Source of the DNA: Acidithiobacillus sp. AMEEHan
Lineage (GTDB): Bacteria > Pseudomonadota > Gammaproteobacteria > Acidithiobacillales > Acidithiobacillaceae
Direction of reading: 5' to 3'
Assembly: GCF_030996345.1 (NCBI RefSeq)
Contig: NZ_CP118747.1
Coordinates: forward strand, 1,052,001 to 1,116,000
DNA: 64,000 nt
The translations under genes were made by a program, and so were the position numbers. Positions 425 to 19,148 of this stretch are shown piece after piece (within the stretch, counting starts at the first letter, position 1; every line of letters starts with the position of its first letter). The notes beneath the pieces were generated by a model. It searched no databases. It saw only the letters and a list, made by a program, of their open reading frames with translations, and was not told the origin of the DNA.

Positions 425-494
425 TTTGGAGTCTCCTGAATGCATCTTGCCCAATTGGCGACTGTGAGTATCTGGCTTCGGGGCGATGGCTTCC

Positions 495-508
495 TTGATC
501 TTGGTCAA
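495..508. promoter_or_regulatory. FNR/Dnr-like operator between globin and regulator genes
   Basis: The sequence TTGATCTTGGTCAA matches the FNR-family consensus TTGAT-N4-ATCAA with one mismatch. It lies about 70 bp upstream of the globin start and 60 bp upstream of the regulator start. The neighbouring regulator carries the FNR-type recognition residues E-x-x-S-R, so autoregulation and control of the globin are plausible. Confidence 0.55.
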
Positions 509-567
509 GATTTTTCGGCATATCTGCAGCTGCCCCGAGGTAGGTGCCGGGTGTCGGGAGCGGCAGC

Positions 568-2518: not shown

Positions 2519-2762
2519 CCTCGCATTCTACCAGATCAAGCGTGCAGAGCTTCCCTAGCTTTCCAGAGAGGGAACTCTTCCTCGTCGCACGGCTCGGCAG
2601 GATTACTGGCATTGCAGTCAGCGCTCTCGCTCGGATATGCAGGCATCCACTGGAGAGGCCGGCGGGCCACTATTTAGGATAAGAGGATTTTTTCAGTTTT
2701 TTAGTCGTTGTGTCGTTAGTGTAGCCAGGTGCGGTGACGAACGGGAAAAGAAGGAGTCGGCC

Positions 2763-3179: not shown

Positions 3180-3186
3180 GGAAACC

Positions 3187-3672: not shown

Positions 3673-5681
3673 GCATGGATCCCGAAATTCTCCAGGATTA
3701 TCTCCCCGAAGCCCGGGAGTTACTGGAGCAGGCCCAGAATGACGCCCTCGCCTTGGAGAGCGAGCCGGGGAATGACGCCCTTCTGGCTTCCTTATTCCGC
3801 GCCTTTCATACCCTCAAAGGTGGAGCCGGTTTTCTCGAAGCGCAGGCCCTGGTGGACTGGACCCATCACCTCGAAGACCTTCTCGACAAACTGCGTTCCC
3901 ATGCCTTGCCGGTCACGAGCCCGCGCATCGACGCCATTCTCCGGGGTATGGACGTGATCGACGGCATGCTGCAGGAAATGCAGCAAGGCATGCTGCCCTC
4001 TCCTGGTCCGGAAGACCTGGGCCGCCTGATTCAGTCCCTTGCCGATTCCACAGCAGCGGAGCCGGAAACGCCGGCCGCGCCCTCGCCAGAAGCTAGCAGA
4101 ACAACGCCCGCGGCGGAGTCCTCCTCACCCGATCCGTCGGCAACGGGGCGGATCTTGTTGACCCAAGAAGCAAACCCTGCGGGAGAGCAGAAGCTCTTCG
4201 TCGAGCAGGTCGAGTCTCCTACCCCGAAAGCCAAGCCCTGCGCGTCACCGACAGGTGGCGATGCCGACACGATCACCGAGACAGAATTTGAGCAATATCT
4301 CGATCAGCTCTACGCCGGGAAAGCGCCAGGGTATACCGAGCCTACCGCGCCCAGCTCCCGCGAAGAACACGACACCAGAGCTACCAGCTCCTCTTCCTCC
4401 GTCCCGAAACCTGCTGAGACAGCACAGAAAATTCCCAACCGCCAAGCTCCACAACCGAACTCGGCGCAAACGACTGCTGGTAGCGGCGGCACTGGCGCTG
4501 CCGAAAGCACCCTGCGCGTCGAGGCAGTACGCCTGGATGATGTCATGAATCAAGTGGGTGAGCTGGTATTGCTGCGCAACCGCTATGCCGCAGCCATCGC
4601 CGCATTGGGTACCGATGATGAGAACCTCACCCGCATTGCCCGGGAAATGGACCTGACCGTAAATGATTTGCAGACTTCCGTCATGCGCCTACGGATGCAG
4701 CCCTGCAAGCGTCTCTTTCAGCAGTTGCCCCGCGTGGTGCGCGACGCCTCCAAAAACCTGGCCAAGTCCGTTCGTCTGGAGCTTGTTGGGGAAGACGTGG
4801 AGATCGACAAGACAGTGGTGGATGCTCTCTCCGGTCCCATGACGCATCTGGTGCGCAATAGCCTGGATCATGGCATCGAGCCGCCCGAGGAACGGCAGGC
4901 CAGCGGCAAAGCTGCAGAGGCGGTGTTGCGTGTCGCCGCCATTCATCTGGGAGACCGGGTACGCATCGAAGTCTCCGACGACGGCCGCGGCATCGATCGG
5001 CAAAAAATCGTGCAAAAGGCCATCGAGAAAGGCGTCATCACCAGTAGCGAAGCCGCGCATCTGTCGGAGCAGGAGGCGTTGGAACTGATCTTTCGCCCCG
5101 GGTTCTCCACCAAAGAGGTGGCTACTGAGCTCTCGGGGCGGGGCGTGGGCATGGACGTGGTCCGCGAAACCGTACGCAGTCTGCGCGGTCGCCTGGAGAT
5201 CGATACCAAGGTGGGCCAGGGTACCCGTATTGCCATGGAGTTTCCCCTGACTTTGGCGGTGTTGCCGGTACTGTATGTCCGCCTGCGTCGTGACACCTAT
5301 GCAATGCCCATTTCCGCCATCGAAAATCTTCTCGACGTGAACCCGGCAAAAATTCATCGCTTGGGAAGTCGCGTCCTGTATCGAGTGGATGCAAAAACGG
5401 TGGTTCCCCTCATCGACCTGGGCGCGACCCTGCAAGATCGAGCTCTGCGGATCGGCACCGAACCCGTTGAGGGCGTGCTTACGTCCCGCGGCCTGCTGTT
5501 GCTCTCCGAGGTCTTGGGCAACGAAGACTCCGTAGTCAAGCCCGTCGATTTCCTGGGGGATCAGCATTGGTACCAGGGAGCAACGATCTCTGGGCAGGGA
5601 AAGGTCGTCCTCATTCTGGATCCGCAAAGCCTGATTCAGGATGGTCTGGATCGGCAGCTCCACGGAACGGAGGTGGCGTGA
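3669..5681 (+). CDS. cheA: Chemotaxis histidine kinase CheA
   Basis: A 670-residue kinase. The N-terminal HPt domain has phospho-acceptor His47 in AFHTLKGGAGF. A Pro/Ala/Ser-rich linker of about 120-275 follows, with no clear P2 CheY-binding domain. Then come the dimerisation helices (MNQVGELVLLRNR), the ATPase domain with the N box HLVRNSLDHGIE and the glycine boxes DDGRGID and GRGVGMDVV, and a CheW-like domain at about 535-665. It autophosphorylates under receptor control and passes phosphate to CheY and CheV. Since no free cheW is present here, coupling to receptors may rely on CheV or a CheW encoded elsewhere. The start overlaps cheZ. Confidence 0.93.
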   Translation: MSMDPEILQDYLPEARELLEQAQNDALALESEPGNDALLASLFRAFHTLKGGAGFLEAQALVDWTHHLEDLLDKLRSHALPVTSPRIDAILRGMDVIDGMLQEMQQGMLPSPGPEDLGRLIQSLADSTAAEPETPAAPSPEASRTTPAAESSSPDPSATGRILLTQEANPAGEQKLFVEQVESPTPKAKPCASPTGGDADTITETEFEQYLDQLYAGKAPGYTEPTAPSSREEHDTRATSSSSSVPKPAETAQKIPNRQAPQPNSAQTTAGSGGTGAAESTLRVEAVRLDDVMNQVGELVLLRNRYAAAIAALGTDDENLTRIAREMDLTVNDLQTSVMRLRMQPCKRLFQQLPRVVRDASKNLAKSVRLELVGEDVEIDKTVVDALSGPMTHLVRNSLDHGIEPPEERQASGKAAEAVLRVAAIHLGDRVRIEVSDDGRGIDRQKIVQKAIEKGVITSSEAAHLSEQEALELIFRPGFSTKEVATELSGRGVGMDVVRETVRSLRGRLEIDTKVGQGTRIAMEFPLTLAVLPVLYVRLRRDTYAMPISAIENLLDVNPAKIHRLGSRVLYRVDAKTVVPLIDLGATLQDRALRIGTEPVEGVLTSRGLLLLSEVLGNEDSVVKPVDFLGDQHWYQGATISGQGKVVLILDPQSLIQDGLDRQLHGTEVA

Positions 5682-6298
5682 TGGACCCGCAACGAATCAC
5701 TCAGCTGGTCGAAAATACCCACGAGATTCAGCGGCAGGTACGGCAGTCTCTGCACGAAATCGACCGCCGAGCGTTGAATGCCATGGTGCTGGTCAAACGC
5801 CACGGCGATGCCTTGGCGGGCTACGGCGTCATTGCCACGGCTTTTCGGGAACAGGCCGCCAAGCTGCAAGCCAAGGCCGAGGAACTGCAGCATTTCGTAG
5901 CCCCCCTCACCGAAGCCGCCATGCGCTTGTTGCAGATTCAGCAGTACGACCAGATGACGCAGCAAATGGTCACCCAGATGGGCCAGGGAAAAGACCTGGG
6001 GAGTCTCCCGGACACCAGGCGGGAATGGGGCGAAACCATTCAACAGGAGCAGGAAAAAATCCAGTCCATCCTGAAAAAGTTGCTCCTGCAGCTGGAGCGA
6101 TTCCAGGAAGGGATTGCGGAGCAGGAATACGTCGTCACCAATGGCCGCATCGAAGCGGCTCTCTCCGAGGGCAGTGGGGCCCCGCTGATGCGGGTTTCGC
6201 GAGATATGGGAGAAGCCGTCAGTGCCGTTCGGCAGGCCATTCAGCAATGGAAGCAGCAGCTAGAGGAGTTTACCCATGAAAGTGGCACCGGTTTTTGA
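5681..6298 (+). CDS. Unknown coiled-coil protein of the che operon
   Basis: A 205-residue protein starting at ATG 5681, which overlaps the cheA stop in TGATG. No membrane segment, signal peptide or enzymatic motif is visible. It is rich in Gln, Glu and Ala with long predicted amphipathic helices: VENTHEIQRQVRQSLHEI near the start, a central FREQAAKLQAKAEELQ helix, and a C-terminal helix ending in AIQQWKQQLEEF. This resembles the helical bundles of receptors or of CheZ, but I do not recognise a family. Tight coupling between cheA and the ODP gene (23-base overlap at its 3' end) implies a part in the same signalling complex, perhaps as an adaptor or scaffold; that is inference only. Confidence 0.72.
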   Translation: MDPQRITQLVENTHEIQRQVRQSLHEIDRRALNAMVLVKRHGDALAGYGVIATAFREQAAKLQAKAEELQHFVAPLTEAAMRLLQIQQYDQMTQQMVTQMGQGKDLGSLPDTRREWGETIQQEQEKIQSILKKLLLQLERFQEGIAEQEYVVTNGRIEAALSEGSGAPLMRVSRDMGEAVSAVRQAIQQWKQQLEEFTHESGTGF

Positions 6299-7040
6299 GG
6301 CCAGCGATCACCGCTGGTGGATTGTCTATGACCAAGACGAGCAGCGGGTCATCGATTCGAACGTCTATGTTATCGAATCGCGCGGCGAGGCCATGCTCCT
6401 CGACCCGGGCGGTTTCGAGATCTTCCCGCAGGTCTTTGCGGCGCTTTCGGAAATCGTTGCCCCCTCCAAGATCAAAGCGGCCTTCGTGTCGCACCAGGAC
6501 CCGGACATTGCCTCGAGCCTACCCTTGTGGAATGCCTGTAATCCCAAAATTCAATGGTATGTACCCAAGCTCTGGGAGGGATTCATTCGCCACTATGGGG
6601 CCCTGGATGCGACCCTCACCGATATTCCTGATGAAGGCATGGACATCGTCCTCGGCGGTCGCCGGCTGGACTTTGTGCCCGCCCACTACCTGCATTCCTC
6701 GGCCAATTTTCATGTCTACGATCCCGAAGCCAAGGTGTATTTTTCGGGGGACGTAGGGGCAGCCCTTTTGCCCCCCGGACATGGCGCCTGGGTAGAGCGG
6801 CGAGAAGACGCAACAGCCGCCGGAGACAAAGCCTTTGCGGAGCATATCGAGCACGGTGCGAAGTATTTCCATCAGCGTTGGATGCCGTCGGAGCGCGCCA
6901 AAAAGAACTGGATCGGGCGGGTGCGCAAGCTTTCCATCGACTATCTCTGCCCCCAGCACGGGGCCATCTACAGCCAGGAGCACGTCCAGCGCTTCCTGGA
7001 CTGGTTCGATGCCCTGCCCGTAGGCAGTGCTGCCGAGTGA
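6276..7040 (+). CDS. ODP-type diiron metallo-beta-lactamase-fold protein
   Basis: A 254-residue cytoplasmic protein with the metallo-beta-lactamase fold of flavodiiron proteins but without flavodoxin or rubredoxin domains. Candidate metal ligands are His73, Asp75 and Asp77 in SHQDPD, a His around 137-146, Asp159 in FSGDVG and His228 in CPQHGA. Such stand-alone oxygen-binding diiron proteins (ODP) are known from chemotaxis operons, for example in Treponema, where they signal O2 to a soluble MCP. Here the gene sits between cheA and a soluble MCP gene, which supports the same role. The start at ATG 6276 lies inside the previous gene and is preceded by AGAGGAG. Confidence 0.85.
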
Positions 7041-7078
7041 TTTTTTTGTTGACAACTAGAGACAGAGGAGGAACCACC

Positions 7079-8338
7079 GTGGATGCAGACACTCTCCATA
7101 TTCTGCAACAAGCGTTAGACCCTTTGGATAGCATGGAAATGCTCGCCGAGGCAGATGCCGCCTACGAGAACAAGATCTTTTACATGAACCCCAAGGCCCT
7201 CAAGGTAATGGATCATTACCACAGTGCGCTTGGGGAACAGTTACGCGGCACCGATGTGCGCACAGCGCTGAACCATTCGATTCACCAATTCCACAAGGAC
7301 CCCGAACGCATTCGGGCCATCTTGCGGGACATTGCTGCCACGCCCGGCAAGGAGCACGTGACCAAGCTGAGCCTTGGGTGTATAACTTTTCAATTGTCGT
7401 TCTCGGCAATACGAGACAGTAAAGATGAGCTGTTGGCCTTTCATGCCTCGTGGAGAGATTGCACTGCGGTAAAACAAACGGAAGAAATTCTCTCGCAGAT
7501 GATCGCGACGAATACGGCGACGACGGAGAACATGACTGCCGTGGAAGCCGCGGTGCGCTCCGGGGTACAACAGGCCAGTCAAGCCATGCAAGCCCTCGTC
7601 GGGCAGATCCAGTCCAACCGGGCGGGGGTAGAGGATCTCCAGGGCAAGGTGATTTCCATTGGGCGGATTGCCCAGAGCATTCGGGAAATTGCCTACCAGA
7701 CGAATTTGCTCGCCCTCAATGCCGCCATCGAGGCGGCACGCGCAGGAGAACATGGGCGGGGCTTTGCGGTGGTGGCGGATGAGGTGCGGAATCTCTCCAA
7801 ACGGGTGCAGGAAGCGACCGAAGAGGTACAGGGCAATATCCAGAGCATCGACGTGGCAACCCAGAAGATCGATGCCACCAGTCGCGAGGGTATTTCCGGA
7901 GCAGAAAAGGCCAGATCAGCCCTGGGGCTTTCCGAGCAAGCGATACACCAGTTGGAGAGTCTGTCAGTCATCATGAGTGTACGATCCGCCATCAGTGCCC
8001 ATGAAGTCTTCGTCAACGACATTGAGCGGGAGATCACGGCTAGCACCCGCACACGACATGCCTCGGATCTCCGGGATCAGCACCACTGTGCTTTTGGCCA
8101 GTGGTATGACGGTGTTGGTCAACAACTGGTGGGTACACTGCGCGAGTTCCAGGAGATCGCGGCTCCCCACGCCGCCGTCCATGAGGCAGCAAAAGCCGTC
8201 CTGAACGCCCTCGATCGCGGGGACCAGCTGGAGCTGGAACGGCAACTCGCATTGCTGTACCAGAACCGTGATGCGGTGATCCGCGCACTGCAGTCCCTGG
8301 AATCTGTTGCCCAGAAAATGTTAGGGGGGAGCCAATGA
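7079..8338 (+). CDS. Soluble methyl-accepting chemotaxis protein with C-terminal CZB domain
   Basis: A 419-residue receptor without transmembrane segments. An N-terminal PAS-like region (about 1-140, with MNPKALKVM and a helical [10 protein letters not shown] stretch) precedes the signalling helices; the conserved hairpin tip [23 protein letters not shown] is at about 208-230. The C-terminus, about 300-375, has CZB (chemoreceptor zinc-binding) hallmarks: an upstream AHEVF helix, [13 protein letters not shown] and PHAAVHEA, giving Cys and His ligands. GTG 7079 is chosen because GAGGAGG lies six bases upstream. It directly follows the ODP gene, so ODP is its likely partner (inference). It overlaps cheV by four bases. 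Confidence 0.9.
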
Positions 8339-9288
8339 GTACCTCGCTGCAAGATGTCGACGAGCGGACCCAGCTTGCGGGGACCAACCGCTTCGAGTTG
8401 CTGGTCTTCCGCCTGGGGAAAACCCAGGGGAGCGACACCCCGGAGTATTTTGGGATCAACGTATTCAAGGTCCGCGAGGCGCTGGTCATGCCGACCATCA
8501 CGCCCATGCCAGGTGCACCACAAAACGTCATGGGGGTAGCCAATATCCGTGGGCAGATCGTCCCCGTCATCGATCTCCCTGCGGTGGTGGGCTGCCAACC
8601 GGAAAAGCGGAACATTCTTCTGGTGACCGAATACGAGCGCTCCATCCAGGGCTTTGCAGTGGAGGATGTCGAGGAAATCGTCCGTCTCGACTGGAACCGC
8701 GTGCTCTCGGCGGAAGGCTCCGCTGTCGGCAGTTTGGTCACGAGCCTCGCACGCCTCGATGAAGATCCAGAGAATTCCCGCCTCGCCCTGGTGCTGGATG
8801 TCGAGGCCATTCTCCGGCAGACCCTGCCTTCGCGCTTCAAGGCGGGTGATGAGATGCGCGAGGCCCATCGGGTAGAGATCCCCGCGGGTTCCGTGGTGCT
8901 CTACGCTGATGACTCGGCAGTCGCGCGTGCACAAATCGAGAAGGCGCTGCGTGCCATCGGGGTGCCCTTTGTCGGTACCAAGACGGGTAAGGAAGCCTGG
9001 GAACGCTTGCAGGAGTTCGCGAAAGAGGCCAAGGCGGCGGGCATCCCGCTGAACCAGAAGGTGGCCCTCGTCCTGACCGATCTGGAAATGCCGGAAATGG
9101 ATGGCTTTACCCTGGCCCGAAAGATCAAGGAGACGGAATCCACCCAGGCTGTCCCAGTGGTGATCCACTCATCGCTCTCCGGCAGCGCCAATGAGGAGCA
9201 TGCGAAAAACGTGGGGGCCGATGGCTACGTGGCCAAATTTGTTCCAGATGAGTTAGCGCGCGCCGTGAGCCGGGTGCTGCATGCTTGA
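8335..9288 (+). CDS. cheV: Chemotaxis coupling protein CheV (CheW-receiver fusion)
   Basis: A 317-residue protein with an N-terminal CheW-like domain (about 18-165; [15 protein letters not shown] is the typical CheW core) and a C-terminal receiver domain (about 185-315). The receiver keeps the acidic pocket YADDSAVA, the phospho-Asp in [14 protein letters not shown] (about residue 249) and Lys in VAKF. CheV proteins couple MCPs to CheA and are phosphorylated for adaptation or as phosphate sinks. With no cheW, cheR or cheB nearby, it may be both the coupling protein and the adaptation element. It overlaps the upstream MCP stop (ATGA), and the next MCP starts 11 bases downstream. Confidence 0.92.
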
Positions 9289-9299
9289 GGAAGATTTCC

Positions 9300-10829
9300 A
9301 TGACCGAAAAGATCGTATCTCTGCCAGCAGGGGTTCTTCCTCCGGAGAACCTGGACCAGGATGTCGAAAACTCGATGACCTCACAGCCGCCGGATACCGT
9401 GTCGGCAGAGCCGGCGGCAAGGGCCCCGACGCCTGATCCAGCGCCTTCGCCCGTGCCCGATCCTCCCGCAGAGAATCCTTCGGGCGGCAATCTCTCGAAG
9501 TTTCTGGACGCATGCCTGAATGGAGATGCACAGGCGTGGAAACCCCTCCTGGAAGATGAGGAGTTCAGCAGTCTGTTGCCGATAGTGGAGGCCGACAGGG
9601 AACGTCTGGAGAGCTTCTGTGCGGTGCTCGATCAACAGATTCACGCCCTCGAAGAAGCCAACGCAGGGCACCTGGAATCCATCCGCTTTGCCCAGAACGT
9701 GCAACAGGCGCAGCAGGGTGCACAGTCGGTGCAGGAACGCCTCCAGCGAATCACCGAGGCCGCACAGGGTGGAAATGCGGTCATCGCGGAAGGATTGCGG
9801 CAAGCACAGGAAACCACACGAGAGATCGGCCTCGGCAACGAGCGGCTCTCGGAATTGATTGGCGAGATCGATTGCACCGAACAATCCATCAATGCAGCCG
9901 GATCGGTGGTGGGGGATTTTTTACGTCAGACGCAGGCGATCAACGCGTTGGCCTTGAAGGTCGAAGAAATCGCCAAGCAGACGAATCTCCTCGCCCTCAA
10001 TGCCGCCATTGAGGCGGCACGCGCAGGGGAGCACGGACGCGGCTTTGCCGTGGTGGCAGACGAGGTCAAGAAGCTGGCACAGAACTCCGCCAAAGCGGCG
10101 GCGGAGATTCGTTCGACCTCCTCGCAAATCCATGCCGGTGCCCAGAACGTCCACGATCGGGTACAAGAGAGTAAAGAGCATCTGGCGCGCGGTGCAGAAT
10201 CGCTGGAGACCGTGGCCACGGTCTTGGGCGAAGCCAATCATTCTGCCAACAAGAATCAGCAGGAGCTTTCGGGAATCGCCCATACCATCGACGCGCAGAC
10301 GCAGGCTGTGGCAGAAGCCATGGCCGAGCAAGAGCAGGTGCAAGCTGTCATATTCGGATCTGTGAAGAGTTTTGACGGGATCGGAAAACACCTCGATGCC
10401 GTGCGCTCGCAACTCGCCAACGCAGCAGAAGCCGCTTTTGGCGGCGGCAGCCCAACCACCCCACCACCGTTGGCGGCTGTGCAGATCACCATTGCCAAGA
10501 GCGATCATGTGCAATGGGTAGGAAAGGTTCTGGAGGCGGCGACGCTCGGGGATACCAGGCTGGGCGCGGACGAGCTCAAGGACGAGACCCAATGCCGGCT
10601 CGGGAAATGGATGGCATTGCTTCCCGAGCCGAGTTTGCTACAGAGCGAGGCGTTTTTGGCTTTACAGAAGATCCACCCGCAAGTACACCAGACGGGATTG
10701 CGGATGGTGCAGGCCATCCGCGAGAGAAACCTGGATTCCATCGCGCAGGATGCGGAACACCTGCAGCAATTGAGTCATGCTGTACAGGAGCAGCTGGACA
10801 TCTTACGCAAGCAGATAGTTGCGCGTTGA
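9300..10829 (+). CDS. Soluble methyl-accepting chemotaxis protein with CZB domain
   Basis: A 509-residue cytoplasmic receptor. The N-terminal 65 residues are Pro/Ala-rich and probably disordered, followed by helical segments, the signalling hairpin [23 protein letters not shown] at about 226-248, and a C-terminal CZB domain from about 400: [10 protein letters not shown], then TQCRLGKWM with the Cys ligand near 430, then IHPQVHQTG. No transmembrane helix is present. ATG 9300 is favoured over TTG 9285 because GAGGAAG lies just upstream. It is the last gene of the co-oriented che run. Known CZB receptors bind zinc and respond to hypochlorous acid or pH; the ligand here is unknown. Confidence 0.9.
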
Positions 10830-10883
10830 TCTGCCAGCACCGACTGCCGAGGTTGCCTGTGCAGCGAGGAGGGTGTCCTTGTC

Positions 10884-10899
10884 TTCAATATAAATTGAA
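10884..10899. promoter_or_regulatory. Inverted repeat upstream of the globin-GGDEF-EAL gene
   Basis: TTCAAT-ATAA-ATTGAA is a perfect 6-bp inverted repeat with a 4-bp spacer in the 262-bp gap before the gene at 11092. Its geometry is like an FNR-family site (N4 spacer), but the half-site differs from TTGAT. A regulatory role is a guess. The rest of the gap, 10830-11091, shows no gene. Confidence 0.3.
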
Positions 10900-11091
10900 A
10901 TCCGTTTTTATACGATTCATGAAGGCGGCAAGTCAATCGACAAAACTTGATGTTGAACCTTTTGGACAATTCAGGGCGGAGGAAGAAGAAATCTTGAGCA
11001 CAAAACCGAAACGTCTCTTGCACAAATCCCATGACGCTCGCACGGTAGAGCCTGCCGTCCAGCGCGATCTCCCTACAGGAGCTATCTTGCG

Positions 11092-13737
11092 ATGAAAACC
11101 ACCAGCACCCTCCCCAACTTCCTCGGTTTGCGAAATCTGGATTTCCAGATCATCGATCGCTACCGGGGTATTCTAGAGGCAGAAGCCCTTGCTCTTGCCC
11201 AGAGCTTTTACGACTATCTACTCTCTCACCCTGTTACCGCTGCCGTCTTCCGGGATTTCTCTCAAGCCCGTTTGAATGCCCTGATCCAGAAACAGGTAGA
11301 GCATGTCAGAGCACTTCTGGCCAGCCACCTGGAGAAATCCTGGCGGGAGTCCATACGCACACTCGGGGCGCTGCACCACCATTTCGGCATCGAGCCCTCC
11401 TGGATCGCCGGCGGTTATGTCCTCTACTGGCGCCATTGGCAAAAGGCGCTCCAGGAGCAGGTCCCTGCGGGCGACCGCAGTTTGCTACGCGACGCGCTGT
11501 TTCGCCTGTTGGTCGGCGATCTCATGATTCAACTCGAAGGTTACGCTCAGGCCTCCCGCGAGACCGATGCCGAAAGACTGGCCTTGTTTAACGTCCTACT
11601 GGAAGTGCTTGCCGTCCCCAGCACCAACGAGGCTCCGCGTATGGACGGGTTACTGCAGCAGATCTGTGAGGCCTTACCTCGCAAAAGCGCCAACGTACGC
11701 TTGGCTGGTTATGTGGTAACCAGCGCCATGGAGGAGACGCTGACCCTGGAATGCATGGCTGGGCTCCCGTTTCCGACCGTACAGATCCCAAAAAGTGCCG
11801 GGGATCCCTGCTGGAGGGCATTGGAAAGCGGTCACGTGGTCATTCAGCCCGTAGAGGATCCACAGGCACCGGAGTGGATCCACTCCTTGCGCCGCAGCGT
11901 CGAGGAAATTGGCTTCTTTCCTTTCGGGGCGGAAGATCTGCGCGGCGTGGGCGTGATCGGCGTGCGCGAAAAGGGATACTTCCGCCGGGTAGGATCGATT
12001 TACTTCGACGCTTTTACACACTTGGGCACGTTGGTGCTCCTGCTACGCAATCAGGCGTTGCGCGACCAACTCACTGCTTTGCCCAACCGCGCCCTCTTCC
12101 TGGACCGCCTGGAGATCGCCCGGGCGCAGTCGTTGCGAAACGAGCGACTGCTGGGGGTAGCGCTCCTCGATCTGGATGGGTTCAAGCAGGTCAATGACCG
12201 CCTGGGACATGCGGCTGGGGACCAGCTGCTGCAAGCCGTGGTGCAACGACTGCAGGCGCAGTTGCGAGCAGGAGATACCCTTGCGCGCATGGGAGGGGAT
12301 GAGTTCGGCCTATTGCTGCCCGGCCTGGAGCGCTTGGACGATCTCCATGCCCTGTGCGAGCGATTGCTTTCCACCATTCGCGAATCAGTAGACATCCAAG
12401 GAGAAGCAGTAAGCGTTTCGGGCAGCCTCGGCGTCACCCTCTATCCCCTGGACGACAACGATTCTGCCACCTTGATACGCCACGCAGATATGGCGCTCTA
12501 TGCGGCCAAGGACGCCGGTCGGGACCAATTTCATCTGCATACCCTGGCTCTCGATGACGCCGTGCTGGAAGAAGCGGAGATGCGCGTGCTGCTGGAGCAG
12601 GCGTTGCAGGAAGGCTATCTGGTTCTGCACTACCAACCGATCGTATCCCGTGCCGGCGCGGTTCTGGGTGTGGAAGCCCTCCTCCGGCTGCAACACCCGG
12701 AGAAAGGCCTGCTTTCCCCTGCAGCCTTTTTCCCCGTCCTGGATCACCCCCACCTGGCGCGCCCCATTGGTCGCTTTGCCTTGGATACAGCCTTGCGGCA
12801 AGGAGAAATCTGGCAGCGAGAGGGCTTGTCATTGCGGATCTCCGTGAACATCAGCGCCCGACACCTGCTCGATACCCGCTTCTTGAAGGATCTGCAAGAA
12901 GCGCTCGCCAGGCACCCCAGTCTGCCGCCGGAACAGTTCGAGATCGAAATCACCGAATCGGCACCATTGGCCGATCTAGCGGAAGCGCAAAGCCTCCTGG
13001 CCGCTTGTCATCGCCTGGGGGTGCGCATCGCTCTCGATGATTTCGGAACCGGTAACGCTTCCCTGAGCTATTTACAGAAATTGCCTATCCACACGATCAA
13101 AATCGATCAGGGTTTCGTGCGCGACATGATCCAGGATCCCAAGGACCTTGCCATTGTCGCGGGAGTGATTACTACTGCGCGCATGCTAGGTCTGGAAGTC
13201 ATTGCAGAGGGCGTGGAAACGCTAGAGTACGCCGCATTGCTGACGAAGATGGGCAGTGTCCGGCTACAGGGCTATCTCTTCTCCAAGCCGATCCCAGCCG
13301 AGAGAATTCCAGGCTGGATCAAGCAGTTTCGCCTCGCCATCTCCCCAATGGAGAACGCCTTAACCCCCATGAATGTCCTGCCGCCGGTTTTGGATGCACA
13401 ACTCCTGCGCGTTCAGGAGTTCCTCCGCGCCCTGCGTGGGGAAATTTCGTTCCCCGCCCAGGTTCTGGAAGACAATGCGGAGGAGTATTGCCATCTGGGA
13501 CGTTGGCTGCGGGGAGAGGGCGCGCTCCTCTTTGGGCAGGCGCCGGAGTTCGCGGATCTTCTCGACCGTCACGAACGACTGCACCAGATCGCTCGCAGGG
13601 CCAAGGCGTTCCTGGATGCAGGGGACACGGATGCTGCCTTGCAGCAGGGGCATCTGCTGGAACAAGAAAACCGAATATTATTGGAGAAAATGCAAGCTAT
13701 ATCGAGTCAACATGGTGATTCAATCGGATTAAAATAA
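11092..13737 (+). CDS. Globin-coupled GAF-GGDEF-EAL cyclic-di-GMP enzyme with CZB-like C-terminus
   Basis: An 881-residue soluble protein. Residues about 10-165 form a sensor globin with the globin-coupled-sensor pattern H-x3-G-x-x-P-x-W, making His95 the likely haem ligand. A GAF-like domain spans about 165-325. The GGDEF domain has an intact GGDEF at 401-405 and an RxxD inhibitory site at 392-395. The EAL domain has E528-A-L-L-R and intact later motifs (NISARHL, EITES, DDFGTG, KIDQGF, AEGVET). The last 115 residues resemble CZB, with Cys800 in CHLGRW and HERLHQIA. Both synthesis and breakdown of cyclic-di-GMP look possible. The sensor implies O2 or redox control of motility or biofilm. Confidence 0.92.
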   Translation: MKTTSTLPNFLGLRNLDFQIIDRYRGILEAEALALAQSFYDYLLSHPVTAAVFRDFSQARLNALIQKQVEHVRALLASHLEKSWRESIRTLGALHHHFGIEPSWIAGGYVLYWRHWQKALQEQVPAGDRSLLRDALFRLLVGDLMIQLEGYAQASRETDAERLALFNVLLEVLAVPSTNEAPRMDGLLQQICEALPRKSANVRLAGYVVTSAMEETLTLECMAGLPFPTVQIPKSAGDPCWRALESGHVVIQPVEDPQAPEWIHSLRRSVEEIGFFPFGAEDLRGVGVIGVREKGYFRRVGSIYFDAFTHLGTLVLLLRNQALRDQLTALPNRALFLDRLEIARAQSLRNERLLGVALLDLDGFKQVNDRLGHAAGDQLLQAVVQRLQAQLRAGDTLARMGGDEFGLLLPGLERLDDLHALCERLLSTIRESVDIQGEAVSVSGSLGVTLYPLDDNDSATLIRHADMALYAAKDAGRDQFHLHTLALDDAVLEEAEMRVLLEQALQEGYLVLHYQPIVSRAGAVLGVEALLRLQHPEKGLLSPAAFFPVLDHPHLARPIGRFALDTALRQGEIWQREGLSLRISVNISARHLLDTRFLKDLQEALARHPSLPPEQFEIEITESAPLADLAEAQSLLAACHRLGVRIALDDFGTGNASLSYLQKLPIHTIKIDQGFVRDMIQDPKDLAIVAGVITTARMLGLEVIAEGVETLEYAALLTKMGSVRLQGYLFSKPIPAERIPGWIKQFRLAISPMENALTPMNVLPPVLDAQLLRVQEFLRALRGEISFPAQVLEDNAEEYCHLGRWLRGEGALLFGQAPEFADLLDRHERLHQIARRAKAFLDAGDTDAALQQGHLLEQENRILLEKMQAISSQHGDSIGLK

Positions 13738-14047
13738 AGGTGGTAGCCAGTGGGACATGGCGGAGGTGGTGCTTGTGGAGTGCAGGTATTCCCCACTGGA
13801 CACGGCGGGGTATTTGCGAGTGGCACGCTGTATGCCGGTTACACCAGAGTATCGGTCCGTTGCCCATGCCCTGTCGCATACCTTGCGAATACACCACCAG
13901 CGGAATCTGTGGTCGTTCCGTTGCTCGCATAGCCAATGACGAACATGAAAAGGCTGGGTGGAAGCCATAGCCGCTCCAGTAGGAAATCCAAGCACGAAGC
14001 GACAGAAGGGATTATTTCAATCCCCTTCGATAACGGGGCAAGCAAAG
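13738..14047. other. Gene-poor stretch before the ISL3-type element
   Basis: No gene can be supported. On the minus strand one frame reads a weakly protein-like segment (about 13950-13850, then Pro/Cys-rich after one TAA), which could be debris of an older gene, but there is no clear start or family. This stretch was contiguous with 15368 onward before the ISL3-type insertion. Confidence 0.4.
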
Positions 14048-14055
14048 CAGTATCC
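14048..14055. repeat. 8-bp target-site duplication, left copy
   Basis: CAGTATCC directly abuts the left inverted repeat of the ISL3-type element; the identical copy lies at 15360-15367. Eight bases is the usual duplication length for the ISL3 family. Confidence 0.9.
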
Positions 14056-15359
14056 GGTTCTTCGATGTTTCATGTGGGTAGCCTGAGATCCAGTTTACCG
14101 AGGATCAGGTAGGCCATGTTGATAAAGTTCTTGTGGGTACGGTAGCCACGGGCTTTTGCCTTGGCGGACTGGAGGAGGCTATTGAAGCCTTCCAGAATCC
14201 CGTTGGTGATCTGGCTCTCGAACCAGCGGAGCACACCATCCCAGTGATTCATGACGGTGTAGGCGACCTTGACCATTGGCGGTAATCCGCTGTCCTTGAC
14301 GTTTTCCACCCAGGCCTTGAGCAGGGTGGCGCCCTGGTGGCGATTCTGGACGGTGAAGATTTCTTGGAAGGTCAGGCGAAGCTGATAAGCCTGTGCTGTC
14401 TTGAGGTTCTGGTTCTTGAGGATCTCCCGGAGCCTGGCGCTTTGCTTGGCGGAGAGCTTTCCCGGGTTCTTGAGCCAAAGCCAGCGGCTCTTTTTCAGGT
14501 CTGGTTGGGAGAGGGCTTCCCCCTTGCGTACGGCATCTACGGCCTCATTGACGAGCTTCATGAGGTGAAAGCGATCGAAGGTGACCTGGGCGTTGGGCAG
14601 GTGTTCTGCGGCCCCTTTTTGGAAGGCTGGCGAGAGGTCCATGCTGACCTCCGTAATGGCCTCGGCGCTGCCGCCATGGGCCTGCAGATCTTCGGCGAAC
14701 TGCGCAAAAGTCTCGGCATCCTTGCCGGGTGTGGCAAACAGCAGGCGCTTCGCCACGAGGTCCACAAACAGGGTGATGTAATCATGGCCGCGCCGGCTGC
14801 TCGTCTCATCGATACCGACGGAATGGACCTCTGACATGTCCGCGGCCTCGCGGGCCTTGGCGACGTAATGATCGAGCACCCGCCAGAGTCGCTGGTCCGT
14901 CTCCCGCACTAGGCGGGAGACCGTCAACACGGGCATCTCCCGGACCATGGCCATGACTAGAGCCTCAAAGAGCAGCGTGAATCCCGAGCCTTCCCGCGCC
15001 CAAGGGACGGATACCAAATGCACGCCGTGTTCCGGGCAATGGACCCGTGGTACGCGGGCATGGAGATAAGCCGCATGCTGGAAGAAGTCGAGGTGACGCC
15101 AGACCTTCTCCTGGGTGTCATAGACCGGGCAGTCCTGGCCGCAGACCGGACAGGGAAACTGACTACCCCTTGGGAAGTTCACATGCAGGTCCAGGCGCTT
15201 TTCCTCCACCGTGAACCGCACATCGTCCACCATCCACGGCGGAACCAACCCCAACGCCAGAGTGAACAGTTGATTACCTTGGTCCATCCTTATCCTCAGC
15301 TCGCTGCCCTTCCCATAAAGCAATCATACCGCCTTACCCACTCAATGTGTCGAGGAGCC
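14056..15359 (-). mobile_element. Complete ISL3-family insertion sequence (1304 bp)
   Basis: Both ends are defined. The left end begins GGTTCTTCGATG and the right end, read inward, begins GGCTCCTCGACA; the two share an imperfect inverted repeat of about 25 bp ending in GTGGGTA. An exact 8-bp direct repeat CAGTATCC flanks the element. It carries one transposase gene on the minus strand. Intact ends, an intact reading frame and a perfect duplication indicate a fairly recent insertion. Confidence 0.92.
14070..15323 (-). CDS. ISL3-family transposase
   Basis: A transposase of up to 417 residues occupying nearly the whole element. The N-terminus has a zinc-finger-like segment (CPVCGQDC, then HCPEHG), followed by a helix-turn-helix region. 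The DDE core includes GIDETSSRRGHDYITLFVD, then DLSPAFQKGAAEHLPNAQVTFDRFH, and a C-terminal segment NGILEGFNSLLQSAKAKARGYR with the probable catalytic Glu. No frameshift or stop is seen. The true start may be the internal Met at about residue 13 (MDQGNQLF). The family moves by cut-and-paste with 8-bp duplications, as found here. Confidence 0.93.
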   Translation of the reverse strand: MLYGKGSELRIRMDQGNQLFTLALGLVPPWMVDDVRFTVEEKRLDLHVNFPRGSQFPCPVCGQDCPVYDTQEKVWRHLDFFQHAAYLHARVPRVHCPEHGVHLVSVPWAREGSGFTLLFEALVMAMVREMPVLTVSRLVRETDQRLWRVLDHYVAKAREAADMSEVHSVGIDETSSRRGHDYITLFVDLVAKRLLFATPGKDAETFAQFAEDLQAHGGSAEAITEVSMDLSPAFQKGAAEHLPNAQVTFDRFHLMKLVNEAVDAVRKGEALSQPDLKKSRWLWLKNPGKLSAKQSARLREILKNQNLKTAQAYQLRLTFQEIFTVQNRHQGATLLKAWVENVKDSGLPPMVKVAYTVMNHWDGVLRWFESQITNGILEGFNSLLQSAKAKARGYRTHKNFINMAYLILGKLDLRLPT

Positions 15360-15367
15360 CAGTATCC
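15360..15367. repeat. 8-bp target-site duplication, right copy
   Basis: CAGTATCC immediately follows the right inverted repeat of the ISL3-type element and is identical to 14048-14055. Confidence 0.9.
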
Positions 15368-15422
15368 TCTGTAAGCTTGGATGCGAGCCGCCACGGACTT
15401 TTTCAGCTAGAGCGGAGACTCA

Positions 15423-15442
15423 TAGGATGACACTTTATTGTT
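15423..15442 (+). repeat. 20-bp direct repeat, copy 1
   Basis: TAGGATGACACTTTATTGTT occurs here and again, identical and in the same orientation, at 15544-15563, 121 bp away. Between them lies an 11-bp inverted repeat. No gene overlaps. The arrangement is like transposase-binding repeats at a transposon end, but no matching transposase is nearby. Confidence 0.75.
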
Positions 15443-15470
15443 AGAAATTTTGGTTATGTAACTGATATCG

Positions 15471-15519
15471 TTTCGTTCTGGGATGAAACATTAGCCTTAA
15501 CGGCAAATCCAGAACGAAA
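15471..15519. repeat. Inverted repeat between the two 20-bp direct repeats
   Basis: TTTCGTTCTGG (15471-15481) and CCAGAACGAAA (15509-15519) are perfect reverse complements separated by 27 bp. There is no T-tract, so this is not an ordinary terminator. Function unknown. Confidence 0.6.
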
Positions 15520-15543
15520 AGAATTAAATGGTTATAGCTGTTT

Positions 15544-15563
15544 TAGGATGACACTTTATTGTT
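15544..15563 (+). repeat. 20-bp direct repeat, copy 2
   Basis: Second identical copy of TAGGATGACACTTTATTGTT (see 15423-15442). It lies about 55 bp from the integron attC site at 15618. Confidence 0.75.
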
Positions 15564-15617
15564 GGTGAACACCGCCTTCGATTGGAAACGTACTAGCTAT
15601 CAAACTCTTCCCGGTAA

Positions 15618-15690
15618 ATCTAACGCCCGAGCCAAGCGGCCAAATCGATCGCGAAGCGATTGATTGGTCCGCTTGAGCGAACTGTTAGGG
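15618..15690 (-). repeat. Integron attC site of the csaA-like cassette
   Basis: Read on the minus strand, a 73-bp imperfect palindrome starts with the R'' box CCCTAAC (15690-15684) and ends with GTTAGAT (15624-15618), a perfect match to the core site GTTRRRY. The inner L boxes pair (TTCGCTCAAGCGG with CCGCTTGGCTCGG). It lies directly 3' of the csaA-like gene, as expected for a cassette recombination site. Confidence 0.85.
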
Positions 15691-15694
15691 GCGA

Positions 15695-16033
15695 TCATAG
15701 CAATCGAGTTCCCAGCGGCACCGGCTTGTCTGGAATGCACAACGCCACCTCGCCGAGCTCGTTGTGAAATCCCGTGACCAGACACTCCGACATGATTGGT
15801 CCGATCTGCTTTCGCGGGAAGTTAACAACCGCAACGACGAGCCGGCCGACAAGGTCCTCCGGTTTGTAGAGCGCGGTGATCTGAGCACTAGACTTTTTGA
15901 TGCCAAACTGCTCGCCGAAATCGACGTGAAGAATGTAGGCGGGCTTTCTGGCCCCCACAAATTCGACTGCCTCAATGATCTTGCCAACTCGAATCTCAAC
16001 CTTCAGGAAGTCATCAAAACTGATCGTATCCAT
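15695..16033 (-). CDS. csaA: CsaA-like tRNA-binding-fold protein (integron cassette)
   Basis: A 112-residue protein consisting of one OB-fold tRNA-binding domain of the CsaA / EMAP-II type. It has the family signature VEIRVGKI near the start, ARKPAYILHVDFGEQFGIKKSSAQIT in the middle and VVAVVNFPRKQIGPIMSE towards the end. CsaA from Bacillus is a dimeric protein-export chaperone and tRNA-binding protein; the role here is unproven. The gene fills the space between two attC sites with few bases to spare, so it is a mobile cassette. The start at 16033 lies 18 bases after the upstream attC site, with only a weak ribosome-binding sequence, which is common for cassettes. Confidence 0.85.
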   Translation of the reverse strand: MDTISFDDFLKVEIRVGKIIEAVEFVGARKPAYILHVDFGEQFGIKKSSAQITALYKPEDLVGRLVVAVVNFPRKQIGPIMSECLVTGFHNELGEVALCIPDKPVPLGTRLL

Positions 16034-16051
16034 GCGACTAACGTCCGATGC

Positions 16052-16111
16052 GCCTAACGCACAGCATCAGCAGGGGTGCGCAACGCCGCCAGCTGCATGC
16101 TATTGTTAGCC
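16052..16111 (-). repeat. Integron attC site of the MKNQYFGD cassette
   Basis: On the minus strand a 60-bp element starts with GGCTAAC (16111-16105) and ends with GTTAGGC (16058-16052), matching both attC core boxes. The arms AATAGCATGCAGC and GCTGATGCTGTGC pair with one extra G, the usual extrahelical base. The site overlaps the last codons of the upstream gene. Confidence 0.85.
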
Positions 16112-16812
16112 AGCCCCATAGGCCTTATTTCGCCGTTCCAATGGGCTGCAAGCAACGCAATCCTGTCCTCGTATCGCTGCGCATGCCGATCTTGAGCGGC
16201 GAGGAGAAACAAGACGTGAGGCGTTCGGAAAGCCTCCACGAAGCACGCCCCGGTGCAGGCACGTAGGTCTGCCGCAAGACGCTCCGCGAAAGGCTGGCGG
16301 GGTTTACGAGGAAAGTGCTGGTAGATGAGCACCGAACAACCGGCCTTCCAAAGACCCTCGACTTCGTTCCAAGTGACGTACTTTGAGGAGCCTTTTCGAC
16401 CGACGGGCTTTGACGGGACCTCGATGCCGTTGTCGGGATCGACGAACACGAGATCGACGCCGGAGGCGACGCGAAATAACTCCGTCCGCCACTGGTCACG
16501 TTCCGTCCGTCCATCTGGGACCACCGCCGAGAAGTAGGATGCTCTGGGCAGCAAGTCGGATGCTTCGATGAGTGACACCGAAGGCTGCTGCGCCGTGCAA
16601 AGGAGACCGGCCAGGCCCGCGAACAGAGCGGGGTCGTAGGCCGACCACCTGTCTGCTACATCGAGGTACGATCGGAATCCTCCGTCCCCGCCACCATCGT
16701 CCGACGTCAGCATCCAAGCGACCAGAAGACGGCCGCCGCCATCCGACTGCAAAGCACGCAGGAGACCGTACTTGCGGTAGTCGTTGACGTCACCGAAGTA
16801 CTGATTCTTCAT
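16054..16812 (-). CDS. Conserved protein of unknown function (MKNQYFGD family), integron cassette
   Basis: A 252-residue soluble protein starting MKNQYFGDVNDYRKYGLLRAL. A hydrophobic strand leads into VFVDPDNGIEVP, followed by GRKGSSKYVTWNEV and VLIYQHFPRK. I know this pattern from conserved hypothetical proteins of cassettes and mobile DNA but not its function. The order (a GD-x-x-D-x-x-K-x-x-LL start, a strand ending in D-P-D-N, then a further strand) is reminiscent of Rossmann-fold methyltransferases such as RlmJ, which is speculation. ATG 16812 is preferred because AAGGACGG precedes it. The last 19 codons lie inside the attC site, so the C-terminus is cassette-derived. Confidence 0.8.
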   Translation of the reverse strand: MKNQYFGDVNDYRKYGLLRALQSDGGGRLLVAWMLTSDDGGGDGGFRSYLDVADRWSAYDPALFAGLAGLLCTAQQPSVSLIEASDLLPRASYFSAVVPDGRTERDQWRTELFRVASGVDLVFVDPDNGIEVPSKPVGRKGSSKYVTWNEVEGLWKAGCSVLIYQHFPRKPRQPFAERLAADLRACTGACFVEAFRTPHVLFLLAAQDRHAQRYEDRIALLAAHWNGEIRPMGLANNSMQLAALRTPADAVR

Positions 16813-16865
16813 CGTTTGCCGTCCTTGTCTGACGCACATAAATTAGGCCGAACCACGGGAGTATT

Positions 16866-16951
16866 ATGTTACCACCGGTGCAAAATGACCCACTAGCGCC
16901 GGGGGAAAATTGCCCCACCTTAGGCGAGAATGGCGGCTTTGAGCTGCCGAC
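16866..16951. mobile_element. Left terminal region of an IS21-family element (remnant)
   Basis: Short repeats typical of IS21 ends, GCAAAATGACCCAC and GAAAATTGCCCCAC, precede the istA start. The matching right end and istB are missing in the window. Confidence 0.6.
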
Positions 16952-17561
16952 ATGTTGACCCCGGAGCAAGCAGTGGAGATCAAAATATTGGCCCGACAGG
17001 GCATGGGTATCCGATCCATCGCGCGGGAGTTGGGGATATCACGCAACACGGTGCGTCGCTACCTGCAGGAGAACCCGGAGCCTGGCCGTTATCGCAGGCG
17101 GGCGGCAGCGCCAACCAAGCTGGATCCCTTTAAAGCCTATTTGCAGGGTCACGTGGAAGCGGCCCGGCCGCATTGGATACCTGCCACGATGCTGTTGCGG
17201 GAGATTCAGGCTCAGGGCTATGGCGGTGGGATACACGCAACTCAAAGCGTATTTGGTACCCTTTCGGAAGCCCACCTCGGAGCCTTTGTTCCGTTTCGAG
17301 ACGGCGCCAGGGCAGCAGATGCAAGCGGATTTCACTACCATCCGGCTGGGCCGAAATCCCCTCAAGGCCTTTGTGGCCACCTTGGGGTACAGTCGGGCCA
17401 GTTTCGTGCGTTTCTGCAGCCACGAAGACGGCGAATCTTGGCTGGAGGGGTTACGCTTGGCCTTCGCCCACTTTGGCGGAGTCCCCCGGCAGGTCCTCTT
17501 CGACAATGCCCGCAGCGTCATTCTGGAGCGGGATGCCTATGGGGAGGGCAAGCATCGCTGG
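16952..17561 (+). pseudogene. istA: IS21-family transposase istA, frameshifted and truncated
   Basis: The reading frame from ATG 16952 gives a clear IstA N-terminus: MLTPEQAVEIKIL, a helix-turn-helix IARELGISRNTVRRYL, then REIQAQGYGGG. Homology then jumps by one base at about 17231 (an extra A in GGTGGGATACACG) and continues in the other frame as YTQLKAYLVPFRK, the first catalytic Asp in QMQADFTTI, and the second in VLFDNARSVIL. It stops matching after YGEGKHRW at about 17561, before the catalytic Glu. No istB follows. This is a decayed remnant, not an active element. Confidence 0.85.
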
Positions 17562-17579
17562 TCACCATGTCAGAGTTTA

Positions 17580-17598
17580 TGTACAATAAAATTGTACA
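17580..17598. promoter_or_regulatory. YefM-type operator palindrome
   Basis: TGTACAAT-AAA-ATTGTACA is a perfect 8-bp inverted repeat 18 bp before the antitoxin gene. The two TGTACA cores are the motif recognised by YefM and YefM-YoeB in E. coli, so autoregulation is likely. Confidence 0.75.
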
Positions 17599-17615
17599 AG
17601 TAATCGGAGACGACC

Positions 17616-17891
17616 ATGGCCATTGAAACCTCTTACAGTCAGGCGCGAGCCGAGTTGGCGAGCCTGTTGGACCGCGTAACCCAAGATCGGGAGACTGTAA
17701 TCATCAAGAGTAAAAGCCGACCGCCGGTTGCAATGATCGATGCAGAAGAGCTCTCTTCCTTGGAAGAAACTGCGTATCTCTTGCGTTCACCTGCGAATGC
17801 CGAACGACTATTGGCGGCGCTGGAGAGGTCCAGGAACGGTCAAGGAGACCGGATGAGCATGGAAGAATTGCGCCAACGAATGGGTTTGTAA
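17616..17891 (+). CDS. yefM: Antitoxin, Phd/YefM family
   Basis: A 91-residue antitoxin. The N-terminal half (MAIETSYSQARAELASLLDRV, then ETVIIKSKSRPPVAMIDAEEL) is the Phd/YefM DNA-binding fold; the C-terminal part (LEETAYLLRSPANAERLLAALERS) is the helical region that wraps the toxin. Family members neutralise YoeB-type RNases and repress their own operon. The stop overlaps the toxin start by one base (TAATG), so the two are translationally coupled. A TGTACA palindrome upstream fits YefM binding. The pair sits at the truncated end of an IS21 remnant, consistent with a mobile history. Confidence 0.92.
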   Translation: MAIETSYSQARAELASLLDRVTQDRETVIIKSKSRPPVAMIDAEELSSLEETAYLLRSPANAERLLAALERSRNGQGDRMSMEELRQRMGL

Positions 17892-18163
17892 TGGCCCAAC
17901 AGCGGTTGGCCGTTTTCGATCCGCACTTTCTGGAAGATTTGCGGCACTGGATAGAAACCGATCGGAAGATTGCAAAGAGGGTCTTGTTGCTGGTCGAGGC
18001 GATTCTGCAGGATCCTTTGTCCGGTATCGGGAAGCCGGAGCCGTTGCGGTATCTGGGCTCTGATGTATGGTCTCGTCGAATCACGCAAGAGCATAGGTGT
18101 GTCTACGTCGTCAAGGTGGACAGGGTTGATTTTTTGCAGGCGCGATATCACTACGAAAAATAG
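17891..18163 (+). CDS. yoeB: Toxin, Txe/YoeB family mRNA endonuclease
   Basis: A 90-residue toxin of the RelE superfamily. Catalytic residues of E. coli YoeB have clear counterparts: Glu50 in GKPEPLRY, Arg69 in EHRCVY and His87 in YHYEK. The family cleaves mRNA in the ribosomal A site. The protein is two residues longer at the C-terminus than the usual ...YHY ending, which may matter because the terminal Tyr is functionally important in YoeB. The gene starts inside the antitoxin stop codon. All key residues are present, so the toxin is probably active. Confidence 0.92.
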   Translation: MAQQRLAVFDPHFLEDLRHWIETDRKIAKRVLLLVEAILQDPLSGIGKPEPLRYLGSDVWSRRITQEHRCVYVVKVDRVDFLQARYHYEK

Positions 18164-18326
18164 GAGCGCCGAACTGACGGCGTTGCCAGCGACGAGTACG
18201 GCCAACAGCACCCCGTCCCGCCACGTTTTCTGGACCGAGATAGTTGACGGCTTTTTGGACAAGAAACGACCCCCGCGAGGGGGGGGCGAACCTGTCCAGA
18301 AACCTTCATGTTCAGGAAAGGATGGT

Positions 18327-19148
18327 TTAAAACTGGTATCCTATCCCTGCATCCATGCTGAAAAGATTCGTTTGGCTGGATGGCTCAAAGAAACCATACT
18401 TCAACTCTCCGCCAGTATAATTGAAGTGAGTGAAGCTTAATCCTCCATAAATATGCCATGGACCAGAGATTTTGTAATCAGCATCAACCCCTATTTTTTC
18501 CTGCCCTGAAGTCTTAAAAGAGGCGCTCCCAAGGTCAGGAAGACCAGCTAGATGAGGCGTCATGCCTGCGCCGACCATGGCAAGCCCCTCTAAATTTGCA
18601 GATAGGACGAGATCCGATGTCGCTGCGTATTGGAATAGTGCCCCAGCTCCAACAAGGCCAGAACTATAATCTTCCGTCTCGATTGCGCTAAGATGGCGAT
18701 TCCAGTCCTGGTAACCCCCAGCGATATATGGGGTTAGCATAACTGACCTTGCAATAGTAAAGCCTTTACCTATTCTTGCTAAAACTCTATTTGTTGTTGC
18801 ATCATCGGTTGTTTGAACGGGCTTGTGAGTTGCTAAATTGGCTCCATCATAGTGGATTCCGCCAGAATTAAACTGGTAGTTAACGGCAAAATAAATATTT
18901 GATGGGAGACTGCTGAAGTAGTTTCCCATCAAGCTATATTTGAACTCGAACCCAGGCATCCATCCAGATTCTGTGTCGGATGGGCTTGGAAGATTTTCTT
19001 GATAGTTCATTAACGTTCCGACAGCGGCAATGCCAACTTCATTATTAGCCGCCACTATGGAACTTTCCGCTCCTGAGGCAAAAGCTATTGCAGAGAAAGA
19101 ACAGACTGCCAAACCAACCGCTGCGGCTACTGCTAATTTTTGCTTCAT
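18327..19148 (-). CDS. Outer-membrane beta-barrel protein, function unknown
   Basis: A 273-residue exported protein. A signal peptide (MKQKLAVAAAVGLAVCSFSAIAFA, about 1-24) is followed by alternating amphipathic strands such as WMPGFEFKYSLMGNY, NIYFAVNYQF and IYGGLSFTHFNY, and it ends in the C-terminal aromatic GYQF expected for barrel assembly. I do not recognise a specific family; an OmpW- or Opa-like small barrel is possible. The gene is visibly AT-richer than its neighbours, with many A/T third positions, and lies in the accessory island beside a toxin-antitoxin pair, which suggests acquisition by transfer. No operon partner is apparent. Confidence 0.78.
   Translation of the reverse strand: MKQKLAVAAAVGLAVCSFSAIAFASGAESSIVAANNEVGIAAVGTLMNYQENLPSPSDTESGWMPGFEFKYSLMGNYFSSLPSNIYFAVNYQFNSGGIHYDGANLATHKPVQTTDDATTNRVLARIGKGFTIARSVMLTPYIAGGYQDWNRHLSAIETEDYSSGLVGAGALFQYAATSDLVLSANLEGLAMVGAGMTPHLAGLPDLGSASFKTSGQEKIGVDADYKISGPWHIYGGLSFTHFNYTGGELKYGFFEPSSQTNLFSMDAGIGYQF

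Follow-up and report, generated by a model that had tools for sequence, protein, structure and literature searches.

Integrons are gene-capture devices: their integrase acts on the bottom strand of an attC site, in its folded form, and recombines it with attI; without an integrase the cassettes are fixed in place. How, then, did two gene cassettes come to lie in a 64,000-nucleotide stretch of the Acidithiobacillus sp. AMEEHan genome (the window, below) in which no integrase is in view? A preliminary description of the window, made from its letters alone, reported two attC-type sites of 60 and 73 bp with core boxes, each following a minus-strand gene, and suggested that the array had been stranded by the activity of insertion sequences. 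Unprefixed positions below are those of the window, and C1 marks genome coordinates; L and G numbers denote the loci and genomes that were compared.

Both sites are present. The site attC1 (15618-15690, minus strand, 73 nt) is the last of the array, and attC2 (16052-16111, minus strand, 60 nt) is separated from it by 361 nt. The R' boxes, GTTAGAT in attC1 and GTTAGGC in attC2, fit GTTRRRY, and the R'' boxes, CCCTAAC and GGCTAAC respectively, agree with RYYYAAC at six of seven positions in each case. A strict scan, which requires TAAC...GTTA cores and a symmetric hairpin, returns these two sites and no third in the 64-kb window; a looser first scan gave additional hairpins, for example at 42984-43070 and 62650-62736. 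Because 200 dinucleotide shuffles yield a mean of 0.35 sites per 64 kb under the strict scan (maximum 3, at a hairpin score of at least 20), that scan is weak by itself, and we therefore built an independent test. This test, R1, is a home-made covariance model derived from 17 attC sites of the family, four of them from another locus of the same genome, 13 from five relatives, and none from the window. Its structure of 19 pairs was set by hand after a column check; RNAalifold finds 15 pairs in the 17 aligned sites, seven of which show changes on both sides. Applied to the window up to E 10, R1 produces exactly two matches, attC1 (34.7 bits, E 1.8e-5) and attC2 (32.7 bits, E 5.2e-5), and each has the orientation of the genes. 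The preliminary description had proposed such a covariance-model search as its check, and had named a failure to fold or score as attC as the outcome that would count against it. Both sites score; when folded as single-stranded DNA, attC1 does well (z -4.0, with 0 of 200 shuffles equally good) and attC2 only modestly (z -1.5, 14 of 200). Rfam, at its gathering cut-offs, gives a tRNA as its sole match. Judged by their letters, the attC sites look still usable in trans.

Read on the minus strand from 16866 downwards, the array consists of an attI-like tail, a gene for a 252-aa protein, attC2, csaA and attC1. The succession of gene, attC, gene, attC, all in one orientation, is thus as first reported, and at the level of sequence we confirm the observation of cassettes with attC sites. 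One detail requires amendment, namely that a site follows each gene. The csaA stop codon does fall 4 nt before attC1, but the frame of the 252-aa protein passes through attC2 and ends at a TAG (16054-16056) within the R' core (CGT TAG). Since the frame continues in this way, the last 18 or so residues of the protein are encoded by attC2 (16054-16111).

The second cassette carries csaA (15695-16033, minus strand), which encodes a CsaA-type tRNA-binding protein of 112 aa (NF007493, 194.5 bits against a cut-off of 160; PF01588). We considered whether csaA is a cassette gene elsewhere and rejected the idea: R1, applied to ten of the 80 csaA loci compared, has no match at E 0.1, and a relaxed scan finds no attC around the gene in the four closest loci (L012-L015, 70-80% identity), a looser scan of L012 giving hairpins that lack true attC cores. 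By DNA search, the window cassettes occur in none of 28 other genomes, so no ancestral arrangement is seen. Two of these genomes, G006 and G017, have a csaA match of 112-117 bp only, or about 40 residues, and the G006 contig contains two weak R1 matches (19.6 and 16.6 bits).

The gene of the first cassette (16057-16812, minus strand) belongs to no Pfam, NCBIfam or PADLOC family. Its product has one PHROG match, of unknown function, at E 0.18, and matches no phage record; two plasmid records match at about 30% identity, two viral contigs carry relatives, and relatives are found in 4 of 397 other genomes in a sample of the phylum. A sequence search for solved relatives gave an unconvincing best E of 0.13. 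The predicted structure, modelled from a seven-sequence alignment, has a pLDDT of 78, with the last 21 residues below 50. When this model is compared by VIA-align, the ten top rows are all RlmJ/DUF519 homologues (Z 10.4-11.1, 3.9-4.4 A over 196-207 residues, the best being RlmJ at Z 11.1 and 3.9 A over 197 residues), and the next row has Z 8.1. Foldseek returns nothing at E <0.001 and no RlmJ among 50 rows, which hold mixed methyltransferases and other proteins; no member of the 252-aa family matches the Pfam RlmJ families. RlmJ, a 23S rRNA methyltransferase, has a DPPY-type catalytic motif, and the motif DPDNG is invariant in all seven aligned members of the 252-aa family. On the basis of the model, the protein likely has a methyltransferase-like fold. 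As for its relatives, L240 follows a McrBC-type gene and L241 follows UvrD-type and GmrSD_N genes, so that two of six relatives, those covered by the family search of neighbours, have defence-type genes beside them; the gene upstream of L143 has, by eye, the look of a translation factor.

We turn now to the missing integrase. A tblastn search of the window with five family intI proteins, two of them partial, finds no intI fragment at E up to 1, in agreement with the initial reading that no integrase is in view. Looking for intI and for more cassettes elsewhere, as had also been advised, yields both. The best IntI match in the genome is a broken gene at C1:1408089-1408567, at the head of a cassette array (cluster A) 340 kb from that of the window; in this region (C1:1408014-1408645; L009 10015-10646) the integrase gene has an internal stop, a missing middle part and a broken frame. 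At a further array, cluster B, fewer than 60 N-terminal codons of intI are left, and no match in the genome exceeds the curated intI cut-off. Applied to the genome up to E 1, R1 gives 11 matches among the best 150 of 2,009 candidates, and all of them fall within four clusters. Cluster A (C1:1402733-1407411; L009 4734-9412) has four attC sites, with the broken intI and an attI at its head; cluster B (C1:1696009-1697539) has three, with the N-terminal intI fragment and an attI; cluster C is the window itself, with attC1 and attC2; and cluster D (C1:1025121-1026140) has two. R1 has no match at E 0.1 in 24 other loci (20 from relatives), which together make up 344 kb.

Two of these clusters have neighbours that we record in passing. 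In the region of cluster B (L145 4653-8114; C1:1694652-1698113), the last attC is followed by two small genes with, by eye, a Phd/YoeB-type toxin-antitoxin look. In that of cluster D (L146 4426-6141; C1:1024425-1026140), the two attC sites surround a TIR-domain gene, and a DUF2813/AAA gene comes next, running into two tandem ISL3 copies.

The preliminary description considered an integron noteworthy in such an organism. This view is not borne out, given the three additional clusters in the same genome and the situation in the family. Counting the genome under study, 8 of 29 family genomes have an intI match above cut-off, and 14 of 29 have one at 1e-25 or better. Matches of R1 at E ≤0.01 are found in 22 of the 29, some of these having a single match that is possibly due to chance, and are lacking in the other seven, three of which are less than 75% complete. 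Each genome offered between 811 and 3,072 candidates in these runs, of which the best 150 were scored, so attC sites may have been missed. Since intI and attC matches are widespread, we regard integrons as usual in the family. One relative, G017, shows at L121 1608-6830 an intI fragment (5390-5728) flanked on both sides by attC matches, two of the four being weak; this array, too, appears rearranged.

What remains at the head of the window array bears on how the array came to lack an integrase. The first cassette is preceded by a probable attI tail (16837-16865, minus strand), whose core, CTAATTTATGT, lies at 16836-16846. This 11-mer occurs exactly twice in the 2.63-Mb genome, at the head of the window array and in the attI of cluster A; its reversed control occurs not at all. 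Over its 29 nt, the tail is identical to the cluster A attI at 19 positions, a level reached by 1 of the 127,942 29-mers of the window, namely the tail itself. Against the attI sites of cluster B, G021 and G003, it matches at 17, 16 and 17 of 29 positions, levels equalled by 10, 23 and 7 of the 127,942 29-mers, respectively. The attI site is conserved in the family: ATCTAA(A/T)TTATGTT precedes the array in eight loci, and L113, L114 and cluster B carry variants of this motif. We also constructed a 31-nt sequence profile, R2, of nine attI sites. With filters, R2 does not match the tail, in the window or in the genome; without filters, no window sequence scores higher than the tail (10.1 bits, E 0.082), the runner-up having 5.8 bits. 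The first cassette begins with TGCGTC, as against the TTRRRY expected after attI. Taken together, the sequence at the array head is probably a worn attI tail. Three relatives (L112 7433-7650, L113 2100-2475 and L117 1-290) have a sequence in common after attI; it begins with TTCGCGGGCG and departs from the TTRRRY with which cassettes usually start. A sigma-70 scan of 15300-17200 finds no promoter before the array.

Directly abutting the attI-like tail is a truncated IS21-family element (16867-17561, plus strand). It is 97% identical to C1:140421-141115, where the sequence continues as a longer IstA frame; NF033546 gives below-cut-off matches to both pieces. Beyond this remnant lie genes for a Phd/YefM-type antitoxin and a YoeB-type toxin (17616-18163, plus strand), with no adjoining attC. 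The earlier suggestion that the array was stranded by IS activity is therefore partly upheld: the truncated IS21 element occupies the very place at which one would look for intI and the remainder of attI. A second insertion sequence, of the ISL3 family (14056-15359, minus strand), went in independently, by simple insertion, and has an 8-bp target duplication of its own, CAGTATCC; and on its tail side the array is bounded not by an IS but by a Tn7-like transposon.

This transposon (C1:1000901-1067571, 66.7 kb) is inserted 24 bp after the stop codon of glmS. Window positions 1-15571 are its left-end part, the left end finishing at 15571. A perfect 5-bp target-site duplication, CCGCC, follows at 15572-15576, and its other copy lies directly before C1:1000901. 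The outer TnsB-site-like repeat of the left end is at 15544-15563 (minus strand), with a second copy at 15423-15442, and variants of these repeats, 20 bp long and arranged in rows, recur at C1:1000909 and C1:10352. From the right end at C1:1000901 there follow tnsA, a TnsB-sized frame, a TniB-type tnsC and tnsD/tniQ. Pfam recognizes the TnsA, TniB-type TnsC and TnsD/TniQ domains as well as glmS; the 721-aa TnsB candidate, with no Pfam match at 1e-4, is named by position and size only, and NCBIfam at 1e-4 matches none of the four tns proteins. The element has the inverted ends with repeated sites, the 5-bp duplication and the position after glmS of a Tn7-like transposon. A second right end of this kind is found at C1:4502-10417 (L190 4502-10417), next to what by eye are flagellar-type genes instead of glmS; its tns frames are of equal lengths except for a split tnsA, it has an ISL3 copy at the same place, and its left end was not found.

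Because the transposon ends and the CCGCC duplication flank them, 66.7 kb of transposon, including window positions 1-15571 and cluster D, lie between glmS and the array. The transposon end is 46 bp from attC1, and without the transposon some 65 bp would separate attC1 from the stop codon of glmS. On the question of a third cassette, the 47 nt at 15577-15623 have no match beyond their own locus among the loci compared.

The ISL3 element lies inside this transposon. It is one of 21 copies in the genome at ≥97% identity, one of them partial; other copies sit in the cluster A array, with the duplication GGAGATCA, and beside cluster D. All nine plasmid-record matches to it are from Acidithiobacillus. 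We considered whether ISL3 had split the array and rejected the idea, since the window and cluster A copies each have a perfect 8-bp duplication of their own.

Given these observations, the array is, we think, quite probably what remains of an integron of the family's resident type: its front end, cut short and now lacking the integrase. An integrase would once have inserted both cassettes by recombination of folded, single-stranded attC sites with attI. The integrase gene and most of attI would later have been lost at the place where the truncated IS21-family element now sits, possibly through that element, and the Tn7-like transposon would have inserted between the array and glmS, either earlier or later than this loss. 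The outcome would be a two-attC CALIN on the minus strand, pointing toward glmS. The preliminary description had indeed raised the term CALIN, and it is apt: the two attC sites are close together, the tblastn search finds no intI near them, and no match in the genome passes the cut-off. An intact intI beside attI, as a complete integron would have, is not found. Since no intI exceeds the cut-off in this genome, we expect both cassettes to be immobile unless an external source supplies an integrase. According to excerpts of PMC8618304, CALINs can arise by off-target insertion, by the loss of intI or by rearrangement; because a probable attI tail stands at the array head, we favour loss of intI over the others.

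It is important, therefore, to weigh this reading against the others. An older Tn7-like element may have brought the integron to glmS as cargo and then lost its ends, the present transposon inserting later at the same site. The class 2 integron lies in Tn7, and the two-attC cluster D sits inside the present transposon. The site after glmS is, moreover, a hotspot for Tn7-like elements in the family: under one strict pattern, end repeats of the same type follow glmS in 6 of 16 other genomes (these being the genomes, of 25 others with a glmS match, whose downstream stretch was covered, in some cases over just 1-2 kb). In those same 16 genomes, however, R1 finds no attC after glmS, and no further set of end repeats appears, at up to two mismatches, beyond the array as seen from the transposon. 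We consider this history unlikely; it is a possible course of events within the truncation that we prefer, and so our odds for the two are not exclusive.

Alternatively, an integrase elsewhere in the genome could have put the cassettes one by one beside glmS, in which case attI was never here. This route is among those listed for CALINs (PMC8618304, in excerpt), an integrase remnant does exist 340 kb away, and the attI-like tail is weak under R2. It fails to account, however, for the 11-nt attI-like tail at the head junction, found elsewhere in the genome only at the cluster A attI, and we regard off-target insertion as quite improbable.

We see only a slim chance that an IS-mediated rearrangement duplicated part of one of the integrons A and B and moved it to the window, a course that would be compatible with truncation, so that here too the odds are not exclusive. 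The 20 further ISL3 matches at ≥97% in the genome, and the copies within cluster A and next to cluster D, count in its favour. Because clusters A and B retain their own attI, though, the window piece would have to be a duplicate. When 13501-19000 is compared with the cluster A region, the two turn out to have no cassettes in common, matching in ISL3 and beyond it in short, weak stretches only; and the separate 8-bp duplications of the two ISL3 copies speak against such a movement as well. Finally, that the sites are chance hairpins and there are no cassettes is virtually excluded, since, for all the modest fold of attC2 and the background of 0.35 sites per 64 kb in the simple scan, R1, built without either site, finds them and nothing else in 64 kb, in an order and orientation of gene, attC, gene, attC.

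With truncation as the preferred reading, the array looks like a genuine and fairly ordinary integron fossil, a remnant of a known type, which leaves the overall picture of integrons unchanged. It does display the decay of an integron, with the integrase and attI lost on one side, a site-specific Tn7-like transposon on the other, and attC sites in good shape. In addition, the four clusters in one genome constitute a set of remnants in which to ask whether frozen cassettes are retained on account of the genes they carry. A more ambitious account would hold that the integrons of this lineage have been shut down repeatedly, leaving four integrase-less clusters, that frozen cassettes persist at transposon hotspots (by glmS and in the Tn7-like element) in the manner of ordinary genes, and that the 252-aa gene represents a new RlmJ-fold family with a role in defence and a C-terminal tail written by attC; as a whole, we think this account decidedly unlikely.

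How does the array compare with known systems? A limited literature search found no paper on a cassette array flanking a Tn7-like element at glmS, and none on cassettes in the family beyond PMC6736930, excerpts of which mention integron integrases for A. ferrooxidans IO-2C. The closest relative of the transposon's situation is Tn5468 at glmUS of Acidithiobacillus ferrooxidans, which is likewise Tn7-like, with tnsABCD next to glmS (PMC2621215, in part); the present element differs in being 66.7 kb long and flanked by a cassette array. Loss of integrases is nothing unusual, nearly one third of intI genes being already pseudogenes in a 2008 survey (excerpts of PMC2426708). The integrons and CALINs of Xanthomonas offer a similar picture of resident integrons, repeated intI loss and two-cassette leftovers, for example in pv. 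citri, but their intI lies at ilvD, whereas the window array lies at glmS beside a Tn7-like element (PMC12444791, in excerpt). The CALIN of Shewanella prophage M16-3 is also an integrase-less array headed by attI; that attI is a clear 28-nt site in a prophage, whereas the window array has a short attI tail and a chromosomal location (PMC9892861, in excerpt). With CALINs in general the array shares two attC sites 361 nt apart, two being the default threshold of IntegronFinder (excerpts of PMC12444791), together with co-oriented cassette genes and no intI nearby. It differs in its position between an IS21 remnant and the end of a Tn7-like transposon, and because the last bases of attI are probably kept, truncated integron front may be a better name for it than CALIN.
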